Below, one piece after another: positions 2,188 to 28,760 of a stretch of DNA of 29,994 nucleotides; the first letter of the stretch is position 1, and every line of letters starts with the position of its first letter. The stretch lies in IMG/VR virus record IMGVR_UViG_3300021964_000333, positions 1 through 29,994 of that record; one strand, written 5' to 3'. A program made the translations under genes and the position numbers. The notes under the pieces were generated by a model. It was given only the letters and a program-made list of their open reading frames with translations. It did not search any database and was not told the DNA's origin. This DNA is from a virus.

Positions 2188-3138
2188 ATGGCTGAAGTAG
2201 AACAAGTAGAAGTGCAATCAGTATCGCACTTACGTAACATGGCACGAGTTAATCGTGATGAAGAAGAACTACGTGAGCTTATGAAACAAGCTGGCATGGC
2301 GCAAGAAGATGAAACGCAGGAAGAAACCACCGATAGTGAATCCGATAGCGAAAGCACTGAGAACACCTCAGTTCAGGCAGAAAGTGTACCTGAACAAAAA
2401 GAGAAAAAGCCAGTTAAAGCCGAAGCACAAGAAGCGGATGATGCAGACCTAAGTGCTGAAGAGAAAACCTTTAAGCAACGCTATGGTGATCTACGCCGCC
2501 ACATGCAAGACAAAGAAAAGGAAGTAGCTGCTAAGCTAGAAAAGCTAGAGCAACAACTAGAAGCTGCTACTAAGAATGAGCTTGTACTACCTAAGTCAAA
2601 CGAAGAGATCGAAGCTTGGGCTAAGAAGTATCCAGACGTAGCAGGTATCGTAGAAGCTATTGCTACAAAGAAAGCTGACGAGAAAGCTGCATCACTAGAT
2701 ACTCGCCTGAAAGAGATCGAAGAGCTACGCATCACAGCTAAGCGTGAGAAAGCTGAAGCTGAACTAGCTGCACTACACCCTGACTTTGGTGAGATTCGCT
2801 CAGATGATGTATTCCATGAATGGGCTAAAGATCAGCCTAAGTGGGTACAAGATGCTCTATACGAGAATGTAGATGATGCTAAGTCTGTAGCTCGTGTGAT
2901 TGACTTGTATAAAGTTGACAAGGGTATTACTGGTAAAGTAAAATCTAGTAGTGACAAAGAAGCTGCTTCCTCAGTGAAGACAAAACGCAACACTACGCCA
3001 GAACACGATGAAGCATCTAAGTATCTTAGTGAATCACAAGTAGCTAAGATGTCTATGAAAGAATATGAGAAGCGCATGGAAGAAATATTTGAAGCCCAGC
3101 GCCAAGGAAAGTTTATTTATGATGTGTCAAGAAAATAG
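2188..3138 (+). CDS. Head scaffolding protein
   Basis: This 316-residue protein is strongly acidic and highly charged, lacks cysteine, and is mostly helical with coiled-coil heptads at residues ~95-210. The Ser/Glu/Thr-rich segment 35-85 looks disordered. The element ALHPDFGEIRSDDVFHEW (about residues 192-209) followed by a Trp-containing helix is typical of scaffold proteins of marine T7-like phages. It lies directly before the capsid gene, as gene 9 does before gene 10 in T7. Scaffold binds coat subunits, shapes the procapsid and leaves before DNA fills the head. The basic C-terminal helix (KEYEKRMEEIFEAQRQGK) would be the coat-binding end by analogy. A clear AAGGAG site sits 8-10 bases before the ATG. 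One CCCAGCGC site lies near its 3' end. Confidence 0.85.
   Translation: MAEVEQVEVQSVSHLRNMARVNRDEEELRELMKQAGMAQEDETQEETTDSESDSESTENTSVQAESVPEQKEKKPVKAEAQEADDADLSAEEKTFKQRYGDLRRHMQDKEKEVAAKLEKLEQQLEAATKNELVLPKSNEEIEAWAKKYPDVAGIVEAIATKKADEKAASLDTRLKEIEELRITAKREKAEAELAALHPDFGEIRSDDVFHEWAKDQPKWVQDALYENVDDAKSVARVIDLYKVDKGITGKVKSSSDKEAASSVKTKRNTTPEHDEASKYLSESQVAKMSMKEYEKRMEEIFEAQRQGKFIYDVSRK
3095..3102 (+). repeat. CCCAGCGC dispersed motif, site 1
   Basis: In the scaffold gene, codons gcc cag cgc (AQR). Extended form AGCCCAGCGC. Confidence 0.8.
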
Positions 3139-3170
3139 TTGACAAATGAATATTCATAAGTAAAACTATA

Positions 3171-3203
3171 GTATATACACAAATACAAGTGTGTATGCTT
3201 TTT
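3171..3203 (+). terminator. Possible weak intrinsic terminator after the scaffold gene
   Basis: GTATATACAC (3171-3180) and GTGTGTATGC (3189-3198) form a 10-pair stem with two G-U pairs around an 8-base loop, followed directly by five T. The stem is AT-rich and therefore weak. It could lower read-through into the capsid leader or only be a structural element. Confidence 0.35.
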
Positions 3204-3242
3204 AAGCACTAGCCACAAAAAAGAACTACCTCAACGTATAGG

Positions 3243-3250
3243 CCCAGCGC
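3243..3250 (+). repeat. CCCAGCGC dispersed motif, site 2
   Basis: The only copy outside genes, in the capsid leader; extended form GGCCCAGCGC starting at 3241. Because no protein constrains it, its presence supports a DNA-level role. Confidence 0.85.
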
Positions 3251-3267
3251 AGATAGGGCGGCCACCC

Positions 3268-3294
3268 TTGACGCTAAGCTGACTACCCTAATAT
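3268..3294 (+). promoter_or_regulatory. Candidate sigma70-type promoter before the capsid gene
   Basis: TTGACG (3268-3273) and TAATAT (3289-3294) are separated by 15 bases, shorter than the ideal 17, and the second box matches TATAAT at only four positions. An alternative is TTGACA (3139-3144) with TAAAAC (3161-3166) after 16 bases. Both are weak candidates supported mainly by their place before the most highly expressed gene. Confidence 0.25.
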
Positions 3295-3359
3295 GAAGAG
3301 CCTCTTTAGTGGATATGTAGTGTCTACTTTCACGCCATATCTATAAGGAGAAATTAACT

Positions 3360-4442
3360 ATGGCTATTACATCCGCATCGGGTGGATTTAACGGGAACTT
3401 TTCCCCAATCATCTATTCCAAACAGGCACAGATTGCTCTACGCAAAACTGCTGTCACAAACGCAATCACGAACAACTCCTACTTCGGAGAGATCGCAAAC
3501 CAAGGCGATACAGTTCGTATCCAAAAAGAGCCAGACGTAACAGTCAACTCTTTACAACGTCACACACCTATTTCTGTTGAGAAGCTAGATGACCAAGACT
3601 TCTCTTTGACCATCGACAAAGCTAACTACTTTGCTTTCAAAATGGATGACATCGAAGAGCAGTTCTCGCACGTTGACTTCACATCTTTGGCTGCTGATCG
3701 TGCAGCGTATAAGATGGCTGATTCAATGGACGAAGAAGTTCTTGGTTACCTATCTGGTTACACAGGTGGTGCAGGTTCATGGGCAGTAAACACAACTGCT
3801 TCAGGTGACAAAGCAAACTCAGCCGCCTCCAATGGTTCTGCAGCAGATAAAGTCGGTGCTGAACTTTTGGCAGCTAACCGTCTAGATGCTACAGACTTCG
3901 GAAACTTGACAATCTCTGCTACTGCAGGTGCAGGTTCGTCTATTCCTCTAGCACCACGTCTTCCAGGCGCAACAGCATTGTCAGCAACTACAGTGTCACC
4001 ACTAACAGTTATTGCACGTATGGCACGTATCATGGATACAGCTAACGTGGACTCACGTGGACGTTGGATCGTTCTTGACCCGGTATTTGTAGAAATGCTA
4101 AAAGACGAAGACGCACGTGTACTTAACGCTGATTTCGGCGGCACTGGCCTAATGAATGGCTTGGTATTGAACAACCTACACGGCTTCCGTGTTTATGTTT
4201 CAAATAACCTTCCATACTTGGGAACAGGTGCAGGTACAACAGGCGTGACTGCACAGGAAGCTAACTACGGTGTTATCGTAGCTGGTCAAGACGAAGCAGT
4301 AGCTTCAGCGGAGCAAATCAACAAAGTTGAGAACTACCGTGACCCAGACAGCTTTGCAGACATCGTTCGTGGTATGCACCTATACGGTCGCAAAATCTTG
4401 CGTCCAGAGGCAATTGTCACAGCGAACTACAACGCTGCTTAA
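3360..4442 (+). CDS. Major capsid protein
   Basis: This 360-residue protein forms the phage head shell. The N-terminal stretch (SPIIYSKQAQIALRKTAVTN), the central GDTVRIQKEPDVTVNSL, a peripheral-domain-like segment VLDPVFVEMLKDEDARVLNA and the C-terminal LYGRKILRPEAIVTANY are the kind of blocks seen in HK97-fold coat proteins of marine podoviruses. The position right after the scaffold and the strong AAGGAG (3345-3350, nine bases before ATG) fit the most abundant virion protein. No protease cleavage site or prohead protease is seen, consistent with scaffold-driven assembly. A long hairpin follows the stop codon (4459-4485). The family assignment is by recognition and was not searched. Confidence 0.88.
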   Translation: MAITSASGGFNGNFSPIIYSKQAQIALRKTAVTNAITNNSYFGEIANQGDTVRIQKEPDVTVNSLQRHTPISVEKLDDQDFSLTIDKANYFAFKMDDIEEQFSHVDFTSLAADRAAYKMADSMDEEVLGYLSGYTGGAGSWAVNTTASGDKANSAASNGSAADKVGAELLAANRLDATDFGNLTISATAGAGSSIPLAPRLPGATALSATTVSPLTVIARMARIMDTANVDSRGRWIVLDPVFVEMLKDEDARVLNADFGGTGLMNGLVLNNLHGFRVYVSNNLPYLGTGAGTTGVTAQEANYGVIVAGQDEAVASAEQINKVENYRDPDSFADIVRGMHLYGRKILRPEAIVTANYNAA

Positions 4443-4458
4443 TCTTAGATAAACTATT

Positions 4459-4488
4459 GGGCTGGTCTTGTCAAGAGGCTGGCCCTTT
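4459..4488 (+). terminator. Hairpin terminator directly after the capsid gene
   Basis: GGGCTGGTCTT (4459-4469) and GAGGCTGGCCC (4475-4485) pair over all 11 positions, four of them G-U, around the loop GTCAA, and TTT follows. The short T run suggests partial termination. The place matches T7 T-phi after gene 10, which lets the capsid message exceed that of downstream tail genes. Confidence 0.6.
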
Positions 4489-4524
4489 AGTACATCTACT
4501 TTCTCTTAAAAAGGACTCCAAACA

Positions 4525-4962: not shown

Positions 4963-4976
4963 TAGGAGCATAGACT

Positions 4977-7499: not shown

Positions 7500-7509
7500 G
7501 GAGTAAAGC

Positions 7510-8808
7510 ATGGCCTACTCAACTAATCCTTTCTCCGTAGCTACCTTTGGTGAAAGCTATGAACAGGCCGATGCTTCCTTTAGCCTTACAGGTGTAGCAG
7601 GTACAGGTGTAATCAATGGTGCAGGAGTTAGCGTTAGCTCACGTACTACTATTATCCTTACGGGTGTACAAGCTAACGGTGCAGCAGGTAGTGCAACAGC
7701 GGCAGCAGAAGCAGTAGTTGCACCAACGGGTGTAGCAGGTACAGGTGCAGCAGATGATGGCCTAACATTTATCTTAGGCGTTGGTACTACACCTACTATT
7801 ACTGGTGTATCTGCTACAGGTAATATAACTAGCTCTAACTCATTCTCAACATTTACAGCAGAGGGTGATGCACAACTTTCTACAGCACAACAAAAGTTTG
7901 GCACTGCATCATTACTGTTAGATGGAACAGATGATTATGTAGAGTCTGATAGTAACATTGATTTAAGTTCAGGTGATTTCACAGTAGATATGTGGATTAG
8001 ACCTGACAACGTTACAGGTTATAAAGGACTATTTCAGTCTGGTACAAGTTCTCTATTAAGTGTTTATTTAATTGGAGATCAAGTCCAAGGTACTGTAGCA
8101 GGATCAACGACTCTCTTTATTTCTGATACCAGAGTTTCTGCAAATGTCTGGACTATGATTACGGTTGAACGAGAAGGAAACGTTCATAGACTATACATTA
8201 ACGGAACATTAGAGGAATCAAGTTCTAGTGCTAACCGCCCAGACAATGGTACTTTTACTGTAGGTAAAAATGGTTTTGGTGATTTTGATGGTTACATTGA
8301 CGAAGTAAGACTTTCTAATGTAGCACAGTATACTGGAACAGGCTTTACTCCACCTACCTCTGCCTTTACAGTAGATAATGACACGTTAGCATTACTACAT
8401 TTTGATGGTACAAATGCTTCTACAGACATTGTAAATGCAGCTAACCTTGCTTATCTTACTGTAAGCGCTGGGTTTGGTCCTACTATCCAACCTGTAGGGT
8501 TTGGCTTAGAGATTATCACTGACTCACTTCTAGTAGATGGTGACGAAGTTGTAGTTGAGTCAGATGCTAACATCAGTCTAGCAGGTAAAGGTGTAGCAGG
8601 TACAGTATCAGGCAACACTGTTACAACAGATTGTCAAGCTGTAGTATTGCCAGTAGGTGTACAAGGTACGTTTACTGTAGGTGATGAAACAATTAACACA
8701 GTACAGTTTGACTATGAGTCAATTAAACAAAACTATAGCAGAGATCGTACTGCTTACATAGGCGAGTATAGCACACTAGGTAACACAGTGTATGTACGTG
8801 CAGCATAG
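7510..8808 (+). CDS. Fibre/adhesion protein with LamG-like domain, 432 aa
   Basis: Residues 25-110 are a series of short repeats that begin TGV (TGVAGTG, TGVQANG, TGVAGTG, TGVSATG). Residues ~115-290 form a LamG/concanavalin-like jelly roll with characteristic pieces: KFGTASLLLDGTDDYVE, SGDFTVDMWIRP, WTMITVEREGNVHRLYING, GYIDEVRLSNVAQY and ALLHFDG. Such domains usually bind sugars. After residue ~350 TGV-like repeats resume (GKGVAGT, VGVQGT), followed by a C-terminal NYSRDRTAYIG. The LamG segment uses AGA for arginine and GGA for glycine, unlike its flanks (CGT, GGT), which suggests insertion of an adhesion module into an older repeat protein. It contains one CCCAGCGC site on the opposite strand. 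Host-surface sugar binding is inferred from the fold. Confidence 0.75.
   Translation: MAYSTNPFSVATFGESYEQADASFSLTGVAGTGVINGAGVSVSSRTTIILTGVQANGAAGSATAAAEAVVAPTGVAGTGAADDGLTFILGVGTTPTITGVSATGNITSSNSFSTFTAEGDAQLSTAQQKFGTASLLLDGTDDYVESDSNIDLSSGDFTVDMWIRPDNVTGYKGLFQSGTSSLLSVYLIGDQVQGTVAGSTTLFISDTRVSANVWTMITVEREGNVHRLYINGTLEESSSSANRPDNGTFTVGKNGFGDFDGYIDEVRLSNVAQYTGTGFTPPTSAFTVDNDTLALLHFDGTNASTDIVNAANLAYLTVSAGFGPTIQPVGFGLEIITDSLLVDGDEVVVESDANISLAGKGVAGTVSGNTVTTDCQAVVLPVGVQGTFTVGDETINTVQFDYESIKQNYSRDRTAYIGEYSTLGNTVYVRAA
8465..8472 (-). repeat. CCCAGCGC dispersed motif, site 3
   Basis: In the LamG-type fibre gene, reverse orientation (GCGCTGGG on the + strand, encoding SAG). Confidence 0.8.
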
Positions 8809-8819
8809 GAATAATAATA

Positions 8820-9140
8820 ATGTCTCTTAAATGGCCTAACAAAGACCCTGATGAAATACTAGACTACAGCATTGATTGGTCACGCTTTCTTAGTGGTGCA
8901 ACTATCAGCAGTGTTACTTGGTATGTTGATGACGCTGATGGTGTAAAGACACAGCTAATCCCTAGTGGTCAACTTGTTAATGGTATTCAGTTAGTGTCTG
9001 CTACTAACACTGATACAGTTACTACAGCACGTTTAGGTTCAGGCTCTAACAACATACTATATCAGTTCTATTGTCGTATAGCTGACTCGAATGGCTTGGT
9101 AGTGGAGCGCAAGGTTCGTTTACGTGTAAGGAATAAATAA
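8820..9140 (+). CDS. Probable fibre-tail adaptor protein, 106 aa
   Basis: The start SLKWPNKDPDEILDYSIDW, followed by a short beta-rich body ending VERKVRLRVRNK, is a pattern I associate with small proteins named fibre-tail adaptors in tailed phages. It lies between the fibre genes and the gp11-like adaptor gene, consistent with joining fibres to the tail. AGGAA before the ATG is a modest ribosome site. The stop TAA (9138-9140) shares its last A with the ATG of the next gene (TAATG), so translation is probably coupled. The function is inferred from family resemblance and place. Confidence 0.6.
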   Translation: MSLKWPNKDPDEILDYSIDWSRFLSGATISSVTWYVDDADGVKTQLIPSGQLVNGIQLVSATNTDTVTTARLGSGSNNILYQFYCRIADSNGLVVERKVRLRVRNK

Positions 9141-9853: not shown

Positions 9854-9855
9854 TT

Positions 9856-11412: not shown

Positions 11413-12813
11413 ATGGGTACAGGTTACGTAAGAGCAGATACAGCTAACAACATTGCTAACGGTAATGTTATTGATGCTGATGATCTAGACAACGAGTTTA
11501 ACGCTGTAGAAGCAGCCTTTAACGCTAGCACAGGCCACACACACGATGGCACTACTAGTGAAGGTGCACCTATTGAGGTTATCGGCCCAGCGCAAGACAT
11601 TGTAGCTACAACTACTGTACTACGCCCTAAGACAAACAATACAGTAGACTTGGGTACATCTAGCCTGAAATACAAAGATGTTTATCTAGCAGGTGACCTT
11701 AATCTTGATGGCTCTATTACATCTACAGGTTCTGTTAACTTAGGTTCTACTTCTATTACTGGTACATTAGCAGTATCAACTGACACAACACTTACAGGTA
11801 ACCTTACTGCTAATGGTAATACTACACTAGGTAATGCAGCTACAGATACGGTGACAGTAAATGCAGATGTTGCGTCAAGTCTTATTCCTTCTGTTGATGA
11901 TTCTTACGATCTTGGTGCTGTTGGAAGCGAATGGCGTAATGCATATATTGATGGCACTGCTTATATTGATACAGGCTCTATTGATACTGCTAATGTGGCG
12001 ACTTTAAATGTCACAGGTAATGCAGACGTAGATGGTGACCTTACTGTTACAGGTAATATTAATGCATCTATTACAGGTACAGCAGCACAAGCAGATGCTC
12101 TTACAACAGCACGTACTATTAGTTTAGCAGGTGATGTAGCAGGTGCAGCTAACTTTGATGGCTCAGCTAACATCACTATCACTACAGTTATTGCTGATGA
12201 TAGTCACAACCACACTATTGCTAACGTAGACGGGTTACAGGCTGCGCTAGATACTAAGATAGAAAACTTAGCTGGTCTTGATGTAACTGCTAGTTATACA
12301 GAGTTAAACATTCTTGATGGTGCTACTTTAACAACAGCAGAGTTAAACTTTGTAGACGGTGTAACGTCAAACATTCAGACACAACTTGATACTAAGCTTG
12401 ATAGTCTATCTACTTACACAGGAGATATTGACATTGATGGCGAACTTGTGGTAACATCTTACAATGAAACATTTGCTGCTGTAACATCATCAAGTAACGC
12501 AACTACGATTGACTGTGAAGCAGGTAACGTATTTAGCCATACACTAAGTGAGAACACTACGTTTACATTTAGCAATCCACCTTCTAGTGGTACAGCTTAT
12601 GGTTTCTCACTTAAGATTGTACAGGATGCAAGTGCTAGTGGTTATACTGTAACATGGCCTAGTGCTATTATATGGCCTAATGCAGATCAGTATGCAGCCT
12701 CTGGTGTACCTCAACTTACAAGTACAGCATCTGCAGTAGATCAGTTTGTGTTCTACACACATGATGGTGGTACTACGTGGTATGGCTTTACAGCAGGTTT
12801 AGACTTAGGATAA
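11413..12813 (+). CDS. Tail fibre protein, 466 aa
   Basis: Residues 1-65 (MGTGYVRADTANNIANGNVI, DDLDNEFNAVEAAF, TGHTHDG) are a typical fibre N-terminus that attaches to the tail. Residues ~70-230 hold repeats of the kind PKTNNTVDLGTSSLKYKDVYL and NLDGSITSTGSVNLGS, a beta-helix-like shaft. Near residue 260 DDSHNH and NVDGLQAALDTKI match the 840-aa fibre, and the last ~110 residues match its C-terminal module (TFTFS, VTWPS, FYTHDGGTTWYGF). The shared pieces are diverged at DNA level, so this is an older duplication or repeated capture. It carries one GGCCCAGCGC site. AAGGAAA precedes the ATG. Confidence 0.8.
   Translation: MGTGYVRADTANNIANGNVIDADDLDNEFNAVEAAFNASTGHTHDGTTSEGAPIEVIGPAQDIVATTTVLRPKTNNTVDLGTSSLKYKDVYLAGDLNLDGSITSTGSVNLGSTSITGTLAVSTDTTLTGNLTANGNTTLGNAATDTVTVNADVASSLIPSVDDSYDLGAVGSEWRNAYIDGTAYIDTGSIDTANVATLNVTGNADVDGDLTVTGNINASITGTAAQADALTTARTISLAGDVAGAANFDGSANITITTVIADDSHNHTIANVDGLQAALDTKIENLAGLDVTASYTELNILDGATLTTAELNFVDGVTSNIQTQLDTKLDSLSTYTGDIDIDGELVVTSYNETFAAVTSSSNATTIDCEAGNVFSHTLSENTTFTFSNPPSSGTAYGFSLKIVQDASASGYTVTWPSAIIWPNADQYAASGVPQLTSTASAVDQFVFYTHDGGTTWYGFTAGLDLG
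11586..11593 (+). repeat. CCCAGCGC dispersed motif, site 4
   Basis: In the 466-aa fibre gene, extended GGCCCAGCGC, codons ggc cca gcg (GPA). Confidence 0.8.
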
Positions 12814-12819
12814 CATAGA

Positions 12820-15591: not shown

Positions 15592-18261
15592 ATGGCTAAA
15601 CGTTTTGGTGGATTCACACCGCAACAACAACAAACACTGTTATCTAAGATGGGCTACACAGGCCCAGCGCAACAGGATGACATTAATAAGTTCATGATGT
15701 CTAGCCCTAAAGCTGCATCTATGATGGGCAAGTATGCACAGATGGCTAAGGCTCGTGTAGAAGGTGGTCCACAGACAGCTATGCAAGTAGGTGGCTACAT
15801 GGCTCCTCCTACTCCTATGCAACAGATGCAACAACAAGCTGCTACACTTGACTATAATCGCTTGTATGCTCAGCCTAATCAGCAACCTATGCAACCTCCT
15901 GTAGCTATGCAGGTTGGTGGTATGACTAACCAGCCTAACACTACAGGTGGGTTTGATGTTGCTCCTACACCTTATCCTACTCTTGTACAACCTCCTGCTC
16001 CTTATGATCCTACTGCAGGTCTACCTACTGCTGTAGAAGCTCCTGATGTTACTTCTTACTTAGAAGACACATCTGCAGGTCAAACCGCCCATCTTAAAAC
16101 AGGTGTCCAAAATTTGTTAGCTAGTGGAGACTTACCAGAAGATCCTAGCAATTACACTATTACAGGTGGTAAACGTAACTGGACTATTACTTTTGATAAT
16201 GGTCAAACAGTAAAGTCAACTGTACGTAACCCTGCAAGTGCTGAGAATGATGCAAAAATGATTGCTGAAGCTATAGCAGGTTACAAAGGTAGTGACATCT
16301 ATAAAGGGTATCAACAACAGCAACAACAGTATGAGCAGAACTTAGGTCAGTATCAAGACTACTATCGCACACAGGCTGGTACAGCAGTACAAGACCCTGA
16401 GACTATTCGTGCTAATCTAAACACTGCACAACAGACGCTAGGACAAGAGCAAGGTCTACTACAGCAATACACTAATCAGCTTGCTAACATGGCTGCTGAT
16501 GATCCACAACGTGCTACACTACAAGGTCTTATTGATCAGCAACAAGTTAAAGTAACACAAGCTCGTGCAGGTGTATCTACAGCACAGACTGCACTAGAGA
16601 CTGTAGGTATGCCTAGCACTACAGAGCTACGTTCTACAGCATTAGATAAACCTGAAGAGCTAGTCACTAAGCAGGATGTAGTTCAGGTATCAGATGCACA
16701 GCGTGAAGCTGGTATGATTGCTGAAGGTGTAGGTCAAGCACCAGAGGATGCTGTTAAAGCACAACAAACTATTGCTAAGCTACGTGCTGATGTACCTCTA
16801 GCTAAAGAGTTCGAAGCTGCTGGTATGACTACTGCTGAAGCTGCACAAGAAGTAGCTAACGTAATGTCTAAGCTAACTGCTGTAACAGGTAAGCCTAGCG
16901 CAGAAGCATTAGCTGATGCAGCTACTATGGACCCGCAACAGCTAGCACAGTTAGGTCTTACAGTAGATCAGATTGATCGTGCTCGTAGAGTAGAAGCTAT
17001 CCCAGCGCTAGAAGTTACACCAGAGATGGAAGTAACAGGTGCTGTAGACATGGAACGTGCTAAGGCAGAGACTAACTTTGCTGCAGCTACTGGTGTTCCA
17101 TCTACTGAAGCTACTGTACAAGGTCAGCTTACACAGCTTATGGAGCAGTTCGAGGATGGTGAGACTCCTGCGTGGGCTGCTGGTGCTATGAGAGCCGCTA
17201 CCCAGCGCATGGCTGCACGAGGTTTGTCAGCTTCTAGTATGGCTGGTCAAGCTATCGTACAAGCTGCTATGGAGTCTGCACTACCTATTGCACAGATGGA
17301 TGCACAGACACGTGCTCAGTTCGAAGCTCAGAACTTAAGTAACCGCCAACAAGCTGCTATGTTTGCTGCAGAGCAACGCTCTAAGTTCCTTGGCATGGAG
17401 TTTGACCAAGAGTTCCAAGCACGTGTACAGAACGCTGCACGTATCGCTGATATAGCACAGATTAACTTTACTGCTGAGCAACAGGTAGCACTAGAGAATG
17501 CACGTATGGCGCAGACTGTAGACATTGCTAACCTTGATGCTAAGAATGCTAAGATCATGGCAGATGCTGCAGCTATGTCACAGCTTGATCTGACTAACCT
17601 TAACAATAGACAACAGGCAGCAATCCAAAAAGCTAAAGCATTCCTAGACTTTGATATGTCTAGCATGTCTAACCAACAGCAAGTTGCTATGTTTAAGGCT
17701 CAAAGCTTAGCAAGTGTATTTATGTCTGATACTGCTGCTGAGAATGCTACACGTCAGTTTAACGCTTCTAGCCAAGATCAAGTAGGTATGTTTTTCTCTA
17801 ACTTGCAGACACAGATTCAGCAGTTTAACAATGAGCAAGCTAATGCTATGGAGAAGTTTAACGCTGGTGAAGCTAATGCTATCTCACAATTTAATGCAGC
17901 ACAACAGAATGCACGTGATCAGTTTAACGCATCCCAAGCTCTTGTAGTTGAGCAAGCTAATGCTCAGTGGGAACAAGCTATCACTACTATGGATAACGCT
18001 GCACAGAACCAAGCTAACCGTGATGCAGCTATTGCAGCTAATGGTTATACTGAGACTACGTATAACAATATGCTACAGCAAGAGCGTGATGCTTTAGATT
18101 ATGCATGGCGTACATCAGATAATGAACTTACTCGTGAAAACTCTTACATGATTGCTGAGCTTCAGAGGAACGGTCAAGTAGCAGCAGCTAAAGGTGAAGC
18201 TGCAGGAAGCATTGCTGCTGTAGCTACAGATTATCTACTTAAAAAGTTTCTTCCTATTTAA
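15592..18261 (+). CDS. Internal virion (ejection-type) protein with 22-residue repeats, 889 aa
   Basis: Residues 1-160 are Gln/Met/Pro/Gly-rich with repeats of MQVGG (AMQVGGYM, AMQVGGMT) and probably disordered. Residues ~190-215 form a small beta segment (YTITGGKRNWTITFDNGQT). Residues ~235-340 are coiled coil, including a Gln run near 241-245. Residues 480-575 contain an Ala-rich helical part. Residues 582-823 form eleven gapless 22-residue repeats (for example LSNRQQAAMFA, LNNRQQAAIQK, MSNQQQVAMFK). The C-terminus is a short hydrophobic helix (YLLKKFLPI). The size, helical content and place after the tail genes fit an internal virion protein injected with DNA, like T7 gp14-16, but no enzyme motif is present. 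It contains three CCCAGCGC sites. Confidence 0.7.
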   Translation: MAKRFGGFTPQQQQTLLSKMGYTGPAQQDDINKFMMSSPKAASMMGKYAQMAKARVEGGPQTAMQVGGYMAPPTPMQQMQQQAATLDYNRLYAQPNQQPMQPPVAMQVGGMTNQPNTTGGFDVAPTPYPTLVQPPAPYDPTAGLPTAVEAPDVTSYLEDTSAGQTAHLKTGVQNLLASGDLPEDPSNYTITGGKRNWTITFDNGQTVKSTVRNPASAENDAKMIAEAIAGYKGSDIYKGYQQQQQQYEQNLGQYQDYYRTQAGTAVQDPETIRANLNTAQQTLGQEQGLLQQYTNQLANMAADDPQRATLQGLIDQQQVKVTQARAGVSTAQTALETVGMPSTTELRSTALDKPEELVTKQDVVQVSDAQREAGMIAEGVGQAPEDAVKAQQTIAKLRADVPLAKEFEAAGMTTAEAAQEVANVMSKLTAVTGKPSAEALADAATMDPQQLAQLGLTVDQIDRARRVEAIPALEVTPEMEVTGAVDMERAKAETNFAAATGVPSTEATVQGQLTQLMEQFEDGETPAWAAGAMRAATQRMAARGLSASSMAGQAIVQAAMESALPIAQMDAQTRAQFEAQNLSNRQQAAMFAAEQRSKFLGMEFDQEFQARVQNAARIADIAQINFTAEQQVALENARMAQTVDIANLDAKNAKIMADAAAMSQLDLTNLNNRQQAAIQKAKAFLDFDMSSMSNQQQVAMFKAQSLASVFMSDTAAENATRQFNASSQDQVGMFFSNLQTQIQQFNNEQANAMEKFNAGEANAISQFNAAQQNARDQFNASQALVVEQANAQWEQAITTMDNAAQNQANRDAAIAANGYTETTYNNMLQQERDALDYAWRTSDNELTRENSYMIAELQRNGQVAAAKGEAAGSIAAVATDYLLKKFLPI
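15663..15670 (+). repeat. CCCAGCGC dispersed motif, site 5
   Basis: Near the start of the 889-aa gene, extended GGCCCAGCGC, codons ggc cca gcg (GPA). Confidence 0.8.
17001..17008 (+). repeat. CCCAGCGC dispersed motif, site 6
   Basis: In the 889-aa gene, codons atc cca gcg (IPA); core only, preceded by AT. Confidence 0.8.
17201..17208 (+). repeat. CCCAGCGC dispersed motif, site 7
   Basis: 200 bases after site 6 but in another reading frame: acc cag cgc (TQR). Confidence 0.8.
17335..18060 (+). repeat. Eleven 66-bp coding repeats (22-residue helical units)
   Basis: Protein residues 582-823 of the internal virion protein divide into eleven consecutive 22-residue units without an insertion or deletion. 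Related unit starts are LSNRQQAAMFA, FTAEQQVALEN, LDAKNAKIMAD, LNNRQQAAIQK and MSNQQQVAMFK; later units carry QFNA/KFNA every 11 residues. The DNA is diverged, so the period is kept by selection on the protein and not by recent duplication. Confidence 0.75.
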
Positions 18262-20466: not shown

Positions 20467-22275
20467 ATGAGTTTTGCAGCAGGTTTCGCTAAAGGTTTTG
20501 CTAATACATTTGTTAGTAACCTAAAGGATAGACGAGAGCGTATCCAAGACTTAGTTGATCAGGGTATTGCTTCAGCTAAAGCTGTGGCTCCTCGTTATGC
20601 ACAAGCTACAGCAGAATATAAAAACATTCTTGAGATTGGTGACATCATGAAGACACGCTATAATGTGTCAGATGAAGAGTTTGTTGCACTAGCTCAAGGT
20701 ACAGACATAACAAAGTTATATCAAAATATCATTAATGAGGACGCTGCTCGTACTGCAGCAGGACGTTCTGGTGTAAGTAAGCAAGACTTCATTAACGTTG
20801 TTGATATGCCTGAAGCTGTACTACCAGAGAACACTACACGTGAACAAGCTATTGCACAGATCATGGGTCTACAAAGCGTAATGCTAGAGAAAGAAGAAGA
20901 CCCTAAAAGCGAAGCTGCTAAAACACGTACAGGTGCTGCAAGTCTTGGTGAGTTTCTTGGGTATAACCCTAAGCTGTCTGCTGAGAAACAACTAGAGGCA
21001 ATGAAGATTATGGGTTATGATGTGTCTGACCTAGAATACTTCCAAGCTACACAAGGTACTAAACAGAAAGTTATTCCTGGTGTTACACGTACACGTGATG
21101 TTGTGTTTGATGACATTGACTACGATAAGAATAGCTATGATGGAACACAGCGTAAGTTTAATTCCATGATTGCTACACGCTTAGCAGGTGCAGACATTTC
21201 TGATCCTGACATCTTCCGTACAACTACAGGTATTAAATCTGATGATAAGACTGTGATGCGTGACAATGCGCTAGAGGCATCTATGTCTATGGCTAAACTT
21301 GAGCTAGAGATTATTAACTCAGGCGCTGGGCTAGGTTTGATTGGTCCTGCTGCTAGACGTAATCTACTAGAAGGTATCTTCTCACAGATTGATGGTGGTA
21401 CTGCAGGAGTACAAGAGATACAAACTCTTATGGCTAACGTAGAGAAGGGTAACGCTATCGCAGCTATCAATGCTATCTATAATGAGAAGGGACGCTTCAC
21501 TGCAGAGGATTATCAAGCTATCATCAATGGTGTTGTACCTAAAACATCAACAAGAGAATCACTAACTGATGACGACATGGGTTTACCTAGTGGTCCTGTT
21601 ACACTTGATGAACAGACGGAGGAAGCGCTAACAGATGATGACATGGGTTTGCCTACTGGTCCTGTTACACTTGATGAACAACCAGATGTAGCTTCAGTAG
21701 CTCCTACACCACCTGTAGTAGAAGATGAAGAGATAGAAGAACTAAAGAGTAAGATAGAAGCTGAGACTGATCCTGTTGTACAGCAAGCTTTAGAGAACGA
21801 GCTAAAGCAAATACAAGCTGAAGCAGAGAAGCCACCAGCTATCGGTAGTGCACGTGAAGTAGCTAAGCGTAATCTAGAAAACAAAGATCGTATGCGTGAA
21901 GCTATGGCATCTGTAACTAAAGAGCAATGGAATGAAATGTCTCGTGAGGAACGCAGAGATGCAGGTCTACCTGTACGCCCACTAGACATGTGGTTCGCAG
22001 GTAGTGATGCGTTTAAAGGTGATGTTGAGGAAGACACATCTACAGAGCTAAAAAATACAACAGACTTCTTAACAGAATACAACAGCGATATTATATCTTT
22101 CTTACGTGAAGATGGAATGACAGGAGAGGAAGACGAAGAAGAGTTTAAGTATGCTCTAGCTGCGTGGTTTGATGAAAACTCTAACCGCTTAGATATACCA
22201 GCTATGACATCTGATGCTAATTTAGACACAATAGCTAAGATATACAAAACTGTACTCACTAACCTTAACCAGTAA
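20467..22275 (+). CDS. Internal virion-type protein, 602 aa
   Basis: The first ~20 residues (SFAAGFAKGFANTFVSNLKD) form an amphipathic Gly/Ala/Phe helix. The body to ~residue 365 is helical with TGAASLGEFLGYNPKLSAEK and GIKSDDKTVMRDNALEASMS; residues 366-410 hold a duplicated 22-residue acidic unit (LTDDDMGLP...GPVTLDEQ); the remainder is a charged coiled coil and a C-terminal helical domain. There is no catalytic motif or signal peptide. The neighbours on both sides are large virion proteins, so a T7 gp15-like ejection role is plausible but not shown. It contains one CCCAGCGC site on the opposite strand. Confidence 0.6.
   Translation: MSFAAGFAKGFANTFVSNLKDRRERIQDLVDQGIASAKAVAPRYAQATAEYKNILEIGDIMKTRYNVSDEEFVALAQGTDITKLYQNIINEDAARTAAGRSGVSKQDFINVVDMPEAVLPENTTREQAIAQIMGLQSVMLEKEEDPKSEAAKTRTGAASLGEFLGYNPKLSAEKQLEAMKIMGYDVSDLEYFQATQGTKQKVIPGVTRTRDVVFDDIDYDKNSYDGTQRKFNSMIATRLAGADISDPDIFRTTTGIKSDDKTVMRDNALEASMSMAKLELEIINSGAGLGLIGPAARRNLLEGIFSQIDGGTAGVQEIQTLMANVEKGNAIAAINAIYNEKGRFTAEDYQAIINGVVPKTSTRESLTDDDMGLPSGPVTLDEQTEEALTDDDMGLPTGPVTLDEQPDVASVAPTPPVVEDEEIEELKSKIEAETDPVVQQALENELKQIQAEAEKPPAIGSAREVAKRNLENKDRMREAMASVTKEQWNEMSREERRDAGLPVRPLDMWFAGSDAFKGDVEEDTSTELKNTTDFLTEYNSDIISFLREDGMTGEEDEEEFKYALAAWFDENSNRLDIPAMTSDANLDTIAKIYKTVLTNLNQ
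21323..21330 (-). repeat. CCCAGCGC dispersed motif, site 8
   Basis: In the 602-aa gene, reverse orientation, codons ggc gct ggg (GAG); extended AGCCCAGCGC. Confidence 0.8.
21562..21681 (+). repeat. Two-copy tandem repeat inside the 602-aa gene
   Basis: Units 21562-21615 and 21628-21681 (period 66 bp) both encode LTDDDMGLPxGPVTLDEQ, with x being Ser then Thr, so 17 of 18 residues match. The DNA copies differ at several, mostly third, positions, so the duplication is not brand new. Confidence 0.85.
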
Positions 22276-22286
22276 GGACTAGCACT

Positions 22287-25200
22287 GTGGCTGACCCATA
22301 TAACTATTACACAGCAGAATCAATGCAGGACAAGAAGCTGTCTGACTTACGTACAGATAGTGCTTTCCTTAAAGATGCTGTAACATTCCTGAAGAGTAAT
22401 CGTTTAGAATACACAGACGAAGACTTACAGGATATGTCTGCATCTGACATCACAGATAAAGTCCTTGAGCATATGCGTTACCAATCAGTTAATGAACGCA
22501 CTATGTATAAAGACTATTACTATCTAGCTGATCAAACTACGCCAACACAAGAACGTGAAGCTTTCAGTCGTTTGATGTTTGCTTTTGATAATGCTAAAGG
22601 TGAAGGTTGGTTTGACCGTGGTGGTGAAAAGATACAAGACTATGCAGGTGCTGTACTATCATCTCCTACTACAATGGCTTCTGCTGCTGCAGGTTTGTTT
22701 ACTGCAGGTACTGGTGCTGTAGCTATTAAAGCGGGTGCTGAGTTAGCTAAAGGTGCAGGTAAGGCTGTATCTGCTTCTATGCTACGTGGCGCAGCTATGA
22801 ATAACCTTAAGAAAGCTGGTATCGTTGCTGCTGCAGATGGTAGCATCGGTGCTTTAACTGATTTAGCTAATCAACGTATTCGTCAGATAGGTGGTAAGTC
22901 TATTGGTGAAGAGCGTGACATTAGCTTAGGACAAGCTGCAGTGTCGGGTGCACTTAGTGCTGCACCAGGTGTAGCCTTATACGGCGCTGGGAAGCTTGTA
23001 TCTAACCGTGCATCTAAGAAACTTGTAGAGGCAGGTCAGATGGGAGAGGAGGCACTAAACGAAAGACGTGTCGCCGCAAAAGAGGCAGCTAAGAAGCTGT
23101 CTGATAAAGCTAAGAAGACACCAGAAGGTAAAGCTCTACTAAGCTACGTGTCAAACAATATGCTACGTGCTATTGATCCACGTATGGTAGAGGAAGGTAA
23201 AGTTGTACGTCAAGACATCTTTAGTGCTGACTTACCTGATGGGCTTATCGGTGGCTTTGATGTAGACACTATCCAGCGTATCGCTGCTGCAGGTTATGAA
23301 GTAGCAGAAGAGCTAGGTGTTACAGATGATATGATCAAGCAAGGTAAGCGTATCACTGAAGTGATTGCTGATAGTATCACTAGTGGCGATGGTAAGGCTC
23401 TCGCTGTCATTGATAATATACGTGAGAAGTATAGCCTGTCACGTGAACAACTATCAGTAGCTTATGCATCAGAAGTATCAGACGCTGCTCGTATCTTGCG
23501 TAGCTCTCGTACAGCTAGAGATAAAGTTTATGCTAAGAGAGTTGACTCTTTGTTTGAGGCAGGGATGTCACCCGTTACGTCTGACGAAATGAAGGTCATG
23601 AAAGATGTACAGAAAAGTATGTCTTCTATTGTGATCAACAATCTGAAAGACCTTGAGAATGCTAGACGTATGTTCATGACTTCTCAACCAGCTACAACTA
23701 TGCGTAACAACATCTTCTCTGTAGCTATGACAGGTATCGACTTGATAGATCAGGTGACTACTGCTGCAGTACGTACTGTGCGTAACAACCCTGAAGCTTC
23801 AGCAGGTGCAACACTACAAGGCTCATTGGATAACATCAAGTATCTTACATTTGATAATTATGTCGCTGAAGCTTTGACTACTATGTTACACGAGAGCGCA
23901 CCTAAGCGTATGCAGAAAGTATTCTATGATGCAGCTATAGCTGAACAGGCTGTGGTAGGCTCTAATAAGTTCTCTAAAGTAGGCGCAGCTATGAACGTTC
24001 TGAACACTATGTCAGACCGTGTAGTTAAACGTGCTGTGATTGCTGGTAGCATTGACCGTCAGCTTAAGCAATTAGGCAATAAAGAGCTAGGCACTGACGT
24101 TCTAGACATGATGCGTAAAGGACGTACACAAGACTTACCTGATGATATCCTACAAGCTGCACTAGATGAATCACTAGCGTTTACATTCCAGCGTAGGTTT
24201 GGTGGTAAAGATGCTAGCGCTGTGAATAAAGCTGCAGCTAGTGCTATCCGTACAATCCACAACTACGGGCTTACACTAGCCATTCCATTCCCACGATACT
24301 TGGCATCACAAGCTAAGTTCGTGTCGGACTACACAGGACTTACTGTAGCTCGTCGTATTGTTTCAGGTAGACGTGTAGCAGATGAAGAATATGGTAAACT
24401 TGCCACTGGTTGGATGGGTACGTATGGATTAATAAACGTTTATCAGAATAAGATATACGATGGTACTAGCTGGAACGAAGTAGTAGACCCTAATAATAAT
24501 CGTACATATGATGCTCAATCAGCTATGGGTCCACTGACTGCACAAGCATACATATCAGACCACCTTGCTCGTAGATTAGAAGGTATGCCTGTTAAACCTG
24601 GAAAAGAAGTAAGGGCAGACTTAGCTAAGATATTAGGTACATCTGAGTTCCGTGTTGATACAGGTTTAGTTGATGCTGTTATGTCAGGTCTAGATGGTAA
24701 AGGCTGGGATAAGTTTAACAGAACTATGTCTGATACAGTAATACCTGTAACATATCCTTTTGCTGTGTTTAAAGACTTCTATGGACAGTTTGATCCACGT
24801 AGTTCTTACATCCCTAACACAGAAGACCCAACATTCTCTATGCTAGACTTCCACGGCATGAATGTTCCTATGAATCTGTATCAACGTGTAACACGTCAGC
24901 TACCAGACTTTAACACAGATGAAATGGCTAACACCTTTAACGAAATGTTTGATACTAACATTGATAGTGACGGTGTTATGAAGTATCTAGAGTTCTTCTC
25001 TTCAGCTACACGTACACAGTTCCAGAATGATTATGCTAAAGATGCATTCGGTGATGACCTTAAGTATGATGCTATCCGCATGAATGTCTTGGGTGATGGA
25101 CCACTACGTATCCTAGACCCACTAGATAAACAGCTTACTGGACTTGTAGGTAGACCACCAAAGAATGCATTAGAGCGTGAAGTAACACGTCTACAGCTTG

Positions 25201-25760: not shown

Positions 25761-25765
25761 AAGAG

Positions 25766-25796
25766 AGGGGCCAAGCGGCCCCTTTACTTTTTTATA
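25766..25796. terminator. Bidirectional intrinsic terminator at the convergent boundary
   Basis: AGGGGCC (25766-25772), loop AAGC, GGCCCCT (25777-25783): a perfect seven-pair GC-rich stem. On the + side it is followed by TTACTTTTTT; read on the - strand the stem is followed by CTCTTTTAATC. It sits five bases after the late-gene stop and touches the stop codon of the convergent 68-aa gene, so it can end transcripts from both sides. Confidence 0.85.
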
Positions 25797-26431: not shown

Positions 26432-26463
26432 TACATCCTCGTTGGATTTTTAGGTGCAAGATG

Positions 26464-26497
26464 AAAGGTAGCCATAAATTATACAGCTACCCTTTTT
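26464..26497. terminator. Hairpin between the RNR operon and the endonuclease gene
   Basis: AAAGGTAGC (26464-26472) pairs with GCTACCCTTT (26486-26495) with one bulged base and a 13-base AT-rich loop. On the + strand it ends in TTTTT; on the - strand, the coding direction here, only TTTC follows. It may weakly end the nucleotide operon or stop antisense read-through. Confidence 0.4.
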
Positions 26498-26501
26498 GTT
26501 A

Positions 26502-26636
26502 TTAGTCTGCTTCTGTGCCGATAATTAGTTCTTTACCTTTCTCATAAGCGTATGCACCTGCTGGTACTACTACATCATTAGCTACACCTATTGCAATAAA
26601 GGCCGTTACTACGATTGATACTACTGTTGCGAACAT
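26502..26636 (-). CDS. 44-aa membrane peptide at the end of the RNR operon
   Basis: The short ORF reads MFATVVSIVVTAFIAIGVAN, then DVVVPAGAYAYEKGKELIIG and TEAD. Residues 3-19 form one transmembrane helix or uncleaved signal-like segment, and the remainder is a short charged tail. Its reality is supported by an excellent ribosome site (AGAAGGAG, seven bases before ATG) located at the end of the glutaredoxin gene, and by starting one base after that gene's stop. The function is unknown; small phage membrane peptides of this kind can act on host membranes, but nothing here specifies it. Confidence 0.65.
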   Translation of the reverse strand: MFATVVSIVVTAFIAIGVANDVVVPAGAYAYEKGKELIIGTEAD

Positions 26637-26637
26637 A

Positions 26638-26868
26638 TTATTCTCCTTCTATATGTTTCTCTAGTTCTTGGTAGCCACCAATGTAGTCGCCACCTATTGT
26701 CCAAACTTGTGGTACTGTACGTATATCAGCTTTCTTGAATAAGTCAAGCACCCACTTGGAATCGTTGAGAGAGTAGTAATTAACTACTCCCCCGTTATCT
26801 CTTATAAGCCCTACCGCTTTGCTGCAGTACATACAGTCGGCTCTACCTACTACAACGTACTGGTTCAT
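26638..26868 (-). CDS. Glutaredoxin
   Basis: A compact 76-residue thioredoxin-fold protein. The redox motif is C12-M-Y-C15 after an early strand (YVVVGRADCMYC); the cis-proline TVP is at 51-53 and the GGY glutathione-contact turn at 64-66 (DYIGGYQELE). The length is at the short end of phage glutaredoxins. It should reduce disulphides, here most likely the C-terminal cysteine pair of the phage ribonucleotide reductase. Its ATG overlaps the TGA of that gene in ATGA, so the two are probably made in step. The CMYC motif differs from the classic CPYC, which may alter redox potential; whether it uses glutathione or thioredoxin reductase cannot be told. Confidence 0.88.
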   Translation of the reverse strand: MNQYVVVGRADCMYCSKAVGLIRDNGGVVNYYSLNDSKWVLDLFKKADIRTVPQVWTIGGDYIGGYQELEKHIEGE

Positions 26869-28760
26869 ACTAGGTCTACAATCTCACAGCTATCACCAGA
26901 GCAAGCCATTGTCTGCATAGCTACAGTGTTGTCTTCCTGCTCGTACTCGTTTAGCTTAGACCAATCAATACGTTCAGGCATTAGCTTAAGTAGTTCTTTA
27001 TACTCTTGCTTCGTGCAGTCTTGGTAAGGTGCTTGCTGATAAGTATGGTCACTGTGTGGTAGGAATGATACGCCTGACATCTCGTCAAAGTGTTCGTACA
27101 CAAACGCACCTACAGCTAGCCATTCATGGTCACGAACTGAGATAGTCACCGATGGTTTATGCTCACACCAGTGACGCTGATACGTAAGCCATGTCTCTAG
27201 CTGCTCAATAGCTGTCATATCATTACGAGTCACTGCGCCTGGTGGTGCTTTTTGTGGGAAGCTGAATACTGTAGTTGTATCACCTTTAAACACACAAGGC
27301 TCATTAGGAATACCTTGATCAATCATGAACTGAGTAAGTGGGTCTTTGTTATCTCCCCGTACAGTCCTAATGTAATAAGAGTTATGACGAGCATGGATGC
27401 CACTAGCAGAGTCCACCAATTGTGATACCGTCCCAGATGGTTTAACGCAAGTGATAGCAGTAGATACAGGGATACCAAGACGTTCAGCCCAAATAGCATT
27501 AGTATCAACTGCGACATTTCGTAAGTGTTCAAGAGTCTTCTCCAATCCTTTGTTCTTAGAAGTCAGTAATGGATTATCCATGATGCCTGTTAGACTTACA
27601 CCTAGTAGTCTTTCTTCTTCTGTGTTACGTTGCCAGATTTTACGTAGATAGGGGAATTTTGTGTATGTTGCTTGGATAGTTCCAAGGATAGTTGCAAGGC
27701 GTACCTTTCGCTCCAAGTCATCCACATTGTCTGTAGCCCTGACCACAACTTCCGTAAGGTTACAGAACTGATACGGGCGCAAGCTGATTTCACTGCACGG
27801 GTTGCAGCCGAACTCTTGATTAGGATCACGCCGCCCATACTTCTTAGCAATTTTAACACAAGCTTCACGGTTAAATACTCCTCGCTCTCCTGACTTACTC
27901 TCTACTAGAGCTAGCCATTCACGCATAAATGTTTCGATGTCAGGTTTCTCTGTGTATGCTACACTGTTGTTAGCCAATGCACGATGTGCTGCAGTTTCCC
28001 ACCACTGCCCTGACTTAGCATGGCGCATACGGTCATCACTTAGGTTAGACAAAGAGATCATAGCACTACGACGAACACCACCTACCACAACGATCTGCCC
28101 AATGAAACACATTAGGTCATGGCATTCTATGCTAGATAACTTACGTCCTTGTGCATTCTTGAATGTAGTGATAGCAAAGTTAAACAGTTCTACTAAAGGC
28201 GCTGGGCCTGATGCTCTGCCGCCAAACGTTTTAAGTCTTGCACCTGCAGGACGTACCAAACTAATATCCCACTTAGGAATTTCACCAGCCCAAAGGAGAG
28301 CTAACAATTGACGGAAAGCCTTAGCCCACCCCTCCTTACTATCTTTAACGACGATAGTAGTGTCACTGTCATAGAGGACAGGCACTTCGGGAAGCTTAGA
28401 TATGTATTGACGTTCAACAGAGAAGCCGACTCCAGTACCGCAGAGGAGGATGTACATCGCTTCGTCGAAGCTCTTAGGGTCATCTACGGGTAGGTATGAA
28501 CAGTTGTAACCTGCTGTGTTGTCACGCTCTAGCGCTGGGCCAGCAGTCATCATAGCTCTCATGGATGGCATGATCTCTAGACCTACAATAGCTTGCTCTA
28601 GGTCATGCTTAGTCTCTGCATCTACCTTGTCACCAATGACGTTAGTAGAGTAACGTGTCACGGTATCATCCCATGACTCACGTCCGTAGTTATCAAAGTA
28701 CTTAGCGTAACGTGATTTGTGAATAAATGATTGGTAGTCTGTCGGTAAGTAGTTGCTCAT
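26865..28760 (-). CDS. nrdJ: Adenosylcobalamin-dependent (class II) ribonucleotide reductase, monomeric
   Basis: This 631-residue enzyme reduces ribonucleoside triphosphates to deoxy forms for phage replication and needs coenzyme B12. All expected residues are present: redox C87 (YNCSY), the finger loop GCNPCSEI with N320, thiyl C322 and E324, the partner C333 (QFCNLTEV; the 11-residue spacing equals that of C408/C419 in the Lactobacillus leichmannii enzyme), and a C-terminal CX4C pair C620/C625 (CSGDSC). It lacks the AdoCbl-independent radical subunit gene, as expected for class II, and shows no intein. It is about 100 residues shorter than the bacterial enzyme. It is ATGA-coupled both to the 53-aa gene before it and to glutaredoxin after it, and has two GGCCCAGCGC sites. 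Confidence 0.93.
   Translation of the reverse strand: MSNYLPTDYQSFIHKSRYAKYFDNYGRESWDDTVTRYSTNVIGDKVDAETKHDLEQAIVGLEIMPSMRAMMTAGPALERDNTAGYNCSYLPVDDPKSFDEAMYILLCGTGVGFSVERQYISKLPEVPVLYDSDTTIVVKDSKEGWAKAFRQLLALLWAGEIPKWDISLVRPAGARLKTFGGRASGPAPLVELFNFAITTFKNAQGRKLSSIECHDLMCFIGQIVVVGGVRRSAMISLSNLSDDRMRHAKSGQWWETAAHRALANNSVAYTEKPDIETFMREWLALVESKSGERGVFNREACVKIAKKYGRRDPNQEFGCNPCSEISLRPYQFCNLTEVVVRATDNVDDLERKVRLATILGTIQATYTKFPYLRKIWQRNTEEERLLGVSLTGIMDNPLLTSKNKGLEKTLEHLRNVAVDTNAIWAERLGIPVSTAITCVKPSGTVSQLVDSASGIHARHNSYYIRTVRGDNKDPLTQFMIDQGIPNEPCVFKGDTTTVFSFPQKAPPGAVTRNDMTAIEQLETWLTYQRHWCEHKPSVTISVRDHEWLAVGAFVYEHFDEMSGVSFLPHSDHTYQQAPYQDCTKQEYKELLKLMPERIDWSKLNEYEQEDNTVAMQTMACSGDSCEIVDLV
28199..28206 (-). 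repeat. CCCAGCGC dispersed motif, site 10
   Basis: In the reductase gene, sense orientation for that gene, extended GGCCCAGCGC (GPA). Confidence 0.8.
28532..28539 (-). repeat. CCCAGCGC dispersed motif, site 11
   Basis: Second copy in the reductase gene, 333 bases from site 10, extended GGCCCAGCGC (GPA). Confidence 0.8.

Follow-up and report, generated by a model that had tools for sequence, protein, structure and literature searches.

An octamer scattered through Roseobacter phage genomes is a candidate Chi site of Rhodobacteraceae AddAB

A viral DNA of 29,994 bases (IMG/VR virus record IMGVR_UViG_3300021964_000333, here called the window) contains 11 exact copies of the octamer CCCAGCGC (complement GCGCTGGG), distributed over both strands. 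Judged from its genes, the window is a fragment of an HMO-2011-type podophage that is close to the Roseobacter phages CRP-603 and CRP-2. The same octamer is strongly enriched in phages of two families, and in the orientation GCGCTGGG it is probably a Chi site of the AddAB enzyme of Rhodobacteraceae, which would be exploited by some phages.

In 100 dinucleotide-preserving shuffles of the window the expected number of copies was 0.29, the maximum was 2, and none of the shuffles reached 11. With order-2 and with order-3 Markov models the word ranks first among the 15,394 8-mers of the window. An earlier sequence-only reading had reported the 11 copies with their places and strands, a GC content of roughly 40%, and a chance expectation of well under one copy; all copies were found again, the GC content was measured as 0.42, and the five copies that extend to GGCCCAGCGC and the two that extend to AGCCCAGCGC were recovered in the same numbers. 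Its statement that about a third of all GCGC tetramers lie within the word was right in tendency and too high in the fraction, which is 11 of 41 (27%). Open reading frames (ORFs) of at least 90 amino acids (aa) hold 10 of the 11 copies, seven in sense and three in antisense orientation, and three of the six possible frames are used, while one copy lies between ORFs, as had been described (Table 1).

The use of several frames had been taken as a sign that selection acts on the DNA and not on the protein, and a shuffle of synonymous codons within each genome backs this view. The coding copies number 10 in the window, 16 in CRP-603, and 18 in CRP-2, compared to 0.11, 0.37, and 0.36 copies, respectively, after shuffling. 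Across the genomes all six frames are used. Site sharing was determined by flank-homology grouping over 14 word-rich genomes, and the 177 sites of these genomes fall into 101 groups, 84 with HMO-type phages only, 14 with Zobellviridae only, and three with both, all three via CRP-4. Sites have thus been gained repeatedly, and their turnover is high. CRP-603 has the word at the matching place for six of the 11 window copies. In 625 ordered comparisons with an aligned HMO-type relative, 269 sites were intact, versus 139 expected from other 8-mers with seven or eight G+C, the pairs being non-independent. Therefore, the prediction that the sites recur at matching places in close relatives held in so far as they are retained more often than comparable words, but much turnover is superimposed. 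The window site at 28199 has homologous flanks at CRP-2 16709 and at CRP-4 11382, and because it recurs in this form in CRP-4, site-bearing genes seem to pass between families. The site at CRP-207 29686 may be at the same place as the window site at 11586, as judged by eye.

The Markov-corrected excess, on which the sequence-only reading had made its claim dependent, persists in whole genomes of relatives. In a survey of 37 genomes or contigs the word ranks first (order-3 model) in 13, which belong to two families. Nine of them are of the HMO type (the window, CRP-603, CRP-2, V005, V008, V010, V017, V018, and V025), and the other four are Zobellviridae (Cobavirinae), namely SIO1 (8 copies versus 0.12 expected), ICBM1 (9 versus 0.15), P12053L (8 versus 0.13), and CRP-4 (7 versus 0.09). 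The word ranks second in CRP-207 and third in CRP-235. The whole records of CRP-603, CRP-2, and CRP-207 contain 19, 18, and 11 copies, and the related contigs V005, V008, V010, V018, and V025 (52-57 kb) contain 9 to 25, with the most, 25, in V025. Enrichment is weak at most in CRP-901 (8 versus 2.7), CRP-804 (5 versus 1.3), CRP-3 (6 versus 1.1), CRP-6 (4 versus 0.84), and CRP-212 (4 versus 1.2), and RDJL Phi 1 is near the expectation (4 versus 3.2). Between zero and three copies are present in CRP-1, CRP-9, CRP-13, CRP-345, CRP-738, CRP-5, ICBM2, CRP-7, CRP-811, ctYwJ313, EE36phi1, and the 33.7-kb contig V020. Four relatives with other hosts have zero copies, i.e., HMO-2011 (SAR116), HTVC115P and HTVC033P (SAR11), and phiM6 (Sinorhizobium). 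Measured against a trinucleotide model, the word is in excess in some phages and absent from relatives, which is the pattern described for Chi in E. coli phages by Bobay, Touchon and Rocha (2013; PMC3784561).

When nine non-HMO roseophages were pooled, the word was merely the 6th (40 found versus 12.2 expected), because several of the nine do not have it. Metagenomic contigs were collected as relatives of four genes (79 of 80 loci were used, L494 being left out as a partial match). Contigs with relatives of the coat gene contain 236 copies versus 9.9 expected. Those with relatives of the SIO1 exonuclease contain 58 versus 1.8 at an identity of at least 61% and none versus 1.5 at 44-55%, and those with relatives of the CRP-1 exonuclease contain none versus 0.7 at an identity of at least 87% and 2 versus 2.4 at 66-82%. 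For the CRP-5 exonuclease, relatives at 41-58% gave 1 copy versus 2.3 expected.

The word is strict. The window, CRP-603, CRP-2, and CRP-207 together contain 59 copies of CCCAGCGC versus 2.1 expected, and the 24 one-base variants have 0-7 copies each in the same four, near the expectation. An equal strictness is found in SIO1 and in ICBM1 plus CRP-4. Over the 101 flank groups the two adjoining bases carry 0.39 and 0.35 bits of information, and all others within ten bases carry at most 0.17; the avoidance of C before the word goes along with a lack of CGCGCT (seven genomes). In CRP-207, V005, V008, and CRP-235 the selected word is a nonamer, GCGCTGGGC, and thus one base longer. Of the 46 sites in these genomes, 41 have C at position nine (T in 4, A in 1), compared to 35 C, 25 T, 22 A, and 3 G in the window, CRP-603, CRP-2, V025, and V017. 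CRP-207 and CRP-235 are distant from one another, with exonucleases that are 33% identical, yet they share one host strain, FZCC0040, and the next base is C in 10 of 11 and in 6 of 7 sites, respectively. Being short, strict, non-palindromic, and G-rich, and having no wider flanks, the word has the form of a Chi site.

The enzyme that would read such a site is also encoded by relatives of the hosts. In eight Rhodobacteraceae genomes, which represent relatives of the phage hosts rather than the host strains, AddB (TIGR02786) was above the curated cut-off in all eight and RecB in none, so that the AddAB or RecBCD system that a Chi site presupposes was found in relatives of the hosts. The strand bias of GCGCTGGG in host DNA was compared with that of 11 words of equal dinucleotide content. 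rRNA operons run with replication, and loci adjacent to them were therefore oriented by the direction of the operon, while other stretches were oriented by the sign of the GC skew. Beside rRNA operons (118 loci, some of which, such as L192 and L221, are titled as other taxa) the leading:lagging ratio is 28:1 (controls 326:121), or about 25:1 because, as judged by eye, two homologous places (L230/L207/L259 and L207/L259) account for 5 of the 28 leading copies. A 400-kb stretch of a Planktomarina contig gives 34:7 (controls 321:145), and a Leisingera sample gives 56:16 (controls 782:451). The Cochran-Mantel-Haenszel (CMH) z against the matched words is 2.9 for four host sets and 2.85 for five, AG-319-F15 having been left out of the first test since its skew was too weak to orient it; it is 2.76 when the rRNA set is thinned to 25:1 and the controls are left unthinned. 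Host DNA thus supports the Chi reading in part.

Of the roles offered by the sequence-only reading, a Chi-like signal fits best, since the word is a strict, non-palindromic octamer with little flank, is shared by two phage families on one host family, with AddAB in relatives of the hosts, and has a partial strand bias. AddAB enters at a double-strand end and degrades the DNA up to a Chi site on the 3'-ending strand, where it slows down and ceases destruction, and RecA is loaded. A phage that does not block AddAB would gain from many Chi sites, because its ends and broken forks would become substrates for recombination instead of being degraded. This route would be taken by the window phage, CRP-603, CRP-2, CRP-207, and the Siovirus group of another family, and another route would be taken by CRP-1, CRP-9, CRP-13, CRP-5, and ICBM2. 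As two families, on several Rhodobacteraceae, converge on the word and no phage protein tracks it fully in the 12 word-rich and 8 word-poor genomes that were compared, a host reader that is used by some phages and bypassed by others is the simplest explanation.

Several observations weigh against the Chi reading. In the host the observed/expected ratio (O/E) of the word is about 1.3 to 1.5 (order 2, three samples), and among 12 dinucleotide-matched words it is the 7th, 11th, 7th, and 3rd most frequent in four samples, so that host over-representation failed as a proof of Chi; because an excess is a feature of many known Chi sites, though not of all, and no strict requirement, this lowers the claim and leaves it standing. 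MED193 has no strand bias (30:23; controls 397:236), AG-319-F15 has little (23:17), and the CMH z falls to 2.05 once the rRNA-adjacent set is removed; a leading-strand bias characterises Chi in E. coli, but not in every species. For the order-5 leading-strand excess z is 2.7 in Planktomarina, while Leisingera has 0.4 and MED193 has -0.9, and GCGCTGGG is 177th of 51,319 in an unsupervised ranking of polar over-represented host words. A stretch of MED193 with five copies of GCGCTGGG and a seemingly low GC content was discarded, as the low value came from masked bases. Phages of the same strain differ: for FZCC0023, CRP-2 has 18 copies, CRP-4 has 7, CRP-1 and CRP-9 have 2 each, and CRP-13 has 3. 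The two phages of Lentibacter SH36 also differ (ICBM1 9 copies, ICBM2 2). The host alone therefore does not decide the copy number. The other FZCC0040 phages, CRP-3 and CRP-212, show the nonamer in just 2 of 6 and 2 of 4 sites, and one set of metagenomic relatives of the CRP-5 exonuclease, predicted to be word-poor, was mildly enriched (9 versus 1.6 expected). The spacing of the sites in seven genomes is random and not even, and the orientation of the phage sites gives no clean protection of both ends; a mid-genome switch of orientation in CRP-603 was set aside because it is not clean in CRP-2, V008, and ICBM1. No gene for an AddAB inhibitor was identified in the word-poor phages. A last point concerns Paracoccus aminophilus, a relative of the phage hosts that belongs to the same bacterial order. 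A passage on its AddAB assigns to it the Chi site of B. subtilis, AGCGG, citing a review (PMC3925955); this site has five bases, was taken over by citation, and is found in neither strand of GCGCTGGG. In view of the counter-evidence from the hosts and from orientation and spacing, we regard the Chi reading as probable rather than certain, and leave some weight to another host factor and slightly less to a factor of the phages.

It is conceivable, although clearly less likely than a Chi site, that the word is the signal of an undescribed factor, Rhodobacteraceae-wide or carried by phages, which would have an eight-base and a nine-base specificity class; examples would be a defence nuclease that spares word-bearing DNA, or a phage recombination system with a Chi-like site of its own. 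That the word is read by a host factor other than AddAB seems rather unlikely; candidates in Rhodobacteraceae would be a protein for replication or segregation, an uptake system, or a defence nuclease. Such a factor would account for the sharing of the word by phages of two families on one host family and for the strand bias seen in some of the host samples, and the weak host over-representation would suit a non-Chi factor. However, to our knowledge no other host factor is known for a strict octamer of this kind, and in the same host samples polarity of the KOPS (FtsK-orienting polar sequence) type sits on a different word, GGGCAGGG. This is the most polar over-represented 8-mer over Planktomarina, Leisingera, and MED193 (25:2, 52:10, and 48:5) and is of the KOPS type of E. 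coli, and the octamer, which differs from the GGGNAGGG-type, was therefore rejected as a KOPS. Sites of restriction and methylation tend to be avoided and not enriched, so the enriched word is unlikely to be a methylation or defence target, which had also been among the roles offered.

A phage-encoded DNA-binding or DNA-processing protein (nucleoid-like, or for replication or recombination) that was spread between families by gene exchange could also read the word, which we consider slightly more doubtful still, although it would explain why phages of the same host differ in copies. All ORFs of at least 40 aa from the 37 genomes or contigs were compared all-against-all with phmmer, and those of 12 word-rich genomes were scored for their presence in these 12 and in 8 word-poor ones. 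None of the proteins occurs throughout the 12 while being missing from all of the 8, and for this reason primase, packaging, and phage regulator sites, which had been proposed as well, fit less well; the best family, found in 6 of 8 plus 3 of 4 word-rich and in 0 of 8 word-poor genomes, was not accepted as a reader. The associations are uncorrected for phylogeny. Each of the 13 enriched roseophages or relatives encodes a Cas4-like exonuclease, as do 7 of the 17 that are not enriched; in other words, the word is enriched in 13 of 20 that have the exonuclease and in 0 of 10 others. This table is without seven of the 37. Two of them, the window and V020, are short contigs that yielded no exonuclease, and the other five are HMO-2011, HTVC115P, HTVC033P, phiM6, and ctYwJ313, the hosts of which are different or unknown; all of these five except ctYwJ313 encode the exonuclease, with zero copies of the word. 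Word-poor CRP-1 has an enzyme that is 53-60% identical to those of word-rich HMO-type phages, and word-rich SIO1 has one that is 27-30% identical to them. Because its similarity does not follow the word, the exonuclease was rejected as the reader, and it looks like a part of the strategy instead.

Two small proteins are also associated with the word. Nine of the 13 word-rich genomes (10 when a longer ORF of SIO1 is counted) encode a member of a winged-helix HTH_39 family, which elsewhere among the 37 occurs in CRP-804 only. A family of 77-102 aa is found in 11 of 13 word-rich phages, which belong to two phage families, and CRP-13 is the one word-poor phage to have it; its V008, SIO1, and CRP-603 members have no PHROG or Pfam match, and the V018 member is acidic. 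Both are absent from V025, the contig with the most copies, which argues against either as the reader. A DUF932 protein is carried by CRP-1, CRP-345, CRP-738, HMO-2011, CRP-3, and CRP-212; among the HMO-type genomes, 4 of the 6 that are word-poor have it and 0 of the 8 that are word-rich. It is a candidate part of an alternative strategy of word-poor phages; a role as annealing protein was dropped, as the literature offered nothing useful by title. Both word-poor Zobellviridae, CRP-5 and ICBM2, have a 5'-3' exonuclease, which in CRP-5 matches phrog_107 and PF02739 and is also present in CRP-6, CRP-7, CRP-804, and ctYwJ313, and they do not have the Cas4-like exonuclease of the four word-rich Zobellviridae.

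It is very improbable that codon use, repeats in proteins, common ancestry, or composition gave rise to the word as a side effect, for although six window copies are shared in place with CRP-603 and three of the seven CRP-4 copies have flanks homologous to HMO-type sites, the excess vanishes under the synonymous shuffle, the sites form 101 flank groups with little flank information, and one-base variants are near chance.

The coat protein gene marks the window as HMO-2011-type, its product being 79.7% identical to that of CRP-2, 78.9% to the 'putative coat protein' of CRP-603, and 61.4% to that of HMO-2011. Forward late genes extend up to 25,760 and are followed by reverse genes, which include ribonucleotide reductase. 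Other words are also unusual in these genomes. CGCG and CCGG are nearly absent in the window (CGCG 0 versus 16.3 expected, CCGG 1 versus 11.9), CRP-603, CRP-2, V025, SIO1, ICBM1, CRP-1, and CRP-9, as are GATC in HMO-2011 (0 versus 170), GTAC in RDJL Phi 1 (1 versus 73.9), and CGCG in CRP-3 (0 versus 116.5), which looks like restriction-site avoidance. CRP-738 contains 19 copies of CAGCGGCT versus 1.6 expected, scattered over both strands; with variants of up to 7 copies it is less strict, and it is possibly another word, for the host FZCC0089. Two further candidates were discarded, GGCGCTGG of CRP-3 (14 copies) as less strict, since GGCGGTGG also has 14, and GCTACTGG of CRP-6, 13 of its 21 copies being clustered in 35,572-36,328.

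Table 1. Copies of the octamer in the window, and genes of the window and of other phages discussed in the text.
Feature	Position	Strand	Context
CCCAGCGC	3095..3102	+	sense, ORF 2188-3138; matching place in CRP-603 and CRP-2
CCCAGCGC	3243..3250	+	sole copy between ORFs (gap 3138 to 3360), ahead of coat protein gene; common to CRP-603, V005, V008, V010, V017, V018
CCCAGCGC	8465..8472	-	antisense, ORF 7510-8808; common to CRP-603
CCCAGCGC	11586..11593	+	sense, ORF 11413-12813; ungrouped with sites of the 13 other word-rich genomes
CCCAGCGC	15663..15670	+	sense, ORF 15592-18261 (889 aa); common to CRP-603
CCCAGCGC	17001..17008	+	sense, ORF 15592-18261; no sharing in flank grouping
CCCAGCGC	17201..17208	+	sense, ORF 15592-18261; common to CRP-603
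CCCAGCGC	21323..21330	-	antisense, ORF 20467-22275; no sharing in flank grouping
CCCAGCGC	22984..22991	-	antisense, ORF 22287-25760; no sharing in flank grouping
CCCAGCGC	28199..28206	-	sense, ribonucleotide reductase gene; common to CRP-2, CRP-207, CRP-603, V005, V010, V025, also CRP-4 (another family)
CCCAGCGC	28532..28539	-	sense, ribonucleotide reductase gene; common to CRP-2, CRP-207, V005, V017
ORF, 316 aa	2188-3138		phrog_13678, function not assigned
Major coat protein gene	3360..4442	+	
Ribonucleotide reductase gene	26865-28760	-	
HTH_39 proteins	CRP-603 4040-4264; V018 27855-28085; ICBM1 2878-3159; others		
77-102 aa family	CRP-603 8649-8900; V018 31472-31711; SIO1 12789-13067; others		
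DUF932 protein	CRP-3 50692-51678 (L130:10692-11678)		
5'-3' exonuclease	CRP-5 8710-9420; ICBM2 9277-9969		

If the Chi reading is true, the word represents a candidate Chi octamer for marine Rhodobacteraceae that was derived from phage rather than host genomes. The choice to manipulate or to supersede host recombination, as made by lambdoid phages, would then also apply to abundant phages of the ocean whose hosts have AddAB, and phages would survive a host enzyme that degrades DNA ends through its own repair signal. It would also open the way to direct AddAB assays, to recombination tools for Roseobacter, and to a search for anti-AddAB genes in word-poor phages. In a literature search neither CCCAGCGC nor GCGCTGGG led, by title, to a phage or bacterial paper, and among the matches listed for AddAB and Chi no Roseobacter Chi site is named in titles and the starts of abstracts; for the wider group, the P. 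aminophilus assignment was the single statement that came up. In a paper on gene transfer agents the passages on AddAB give no Chi site or sequence (PMC9765227); in the main paper on HMO-2011-type phages no Chi sites are found among the passages with words beginning with 'Chi' (PMC9038755).

Cluster A mycobacteriophages contain stoperators, repressor-bound sites of about 13 bp in short intergenic gaps, the specificity of which varies between relatives. Like them, the octamer is an asymmetric word of which many copies are scattered in a phage genome. Unlike them, it is common to two phage families and 10 of its 11 window copies lie inside ORFs and not in gaps, and a repressor site of the stoperator type was therefore rejected. 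For E. coli it is described that lambdoid phages without recombinases over-represent Chi, that Chi is lost from those that encode both a recombinase of their own and an inhibitor, so that presence or absence goes by recombination strategy, and that the O/E of Chi is 2.29 (PMC3784561). The octamer resembles Chi in lambdoid and in T5- and P1-like E. coli phages in being strict, spread over the genome, and either strong or absent among relatives, and in an excess in phages that is at least as high as in host genomes (PMC3784561); it differs in the word, in the host family, and in the AddAB of the hosts, its Chi role being that of a candidate. The Chi words known so far are short, and most of them are GC-rich; that of Pseudomonas syringae is reported to be over-represented and to have no strand skew, and is partly recognised in 7-of-8 variants (PMC5959072). 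The Chi sites of P. syringae, 5'-GCTGGCGC-3', and E. coli, 5'-GCTGGTGG-3', are other words and belong to RecBCD rather than AddAB, but they are G-rich octamers that contain GCTGG, like GCGCTGGG (PMC5959072). The Chi site of Caulobacter crescentus, 5'-GCGGTGGT-3', is a different word, for which no comparable signal was present in three Rhodobacteraceae samples, and an array of it was tested in cells (PMC5443536), whereas the present word was studied as sequence. The octamer has in common with the Caulobacter site an alphaproteobacterial AddAB as the likely reader, the form of a G-rich octamer, and, in some of the host samples, a bias towards one strand.

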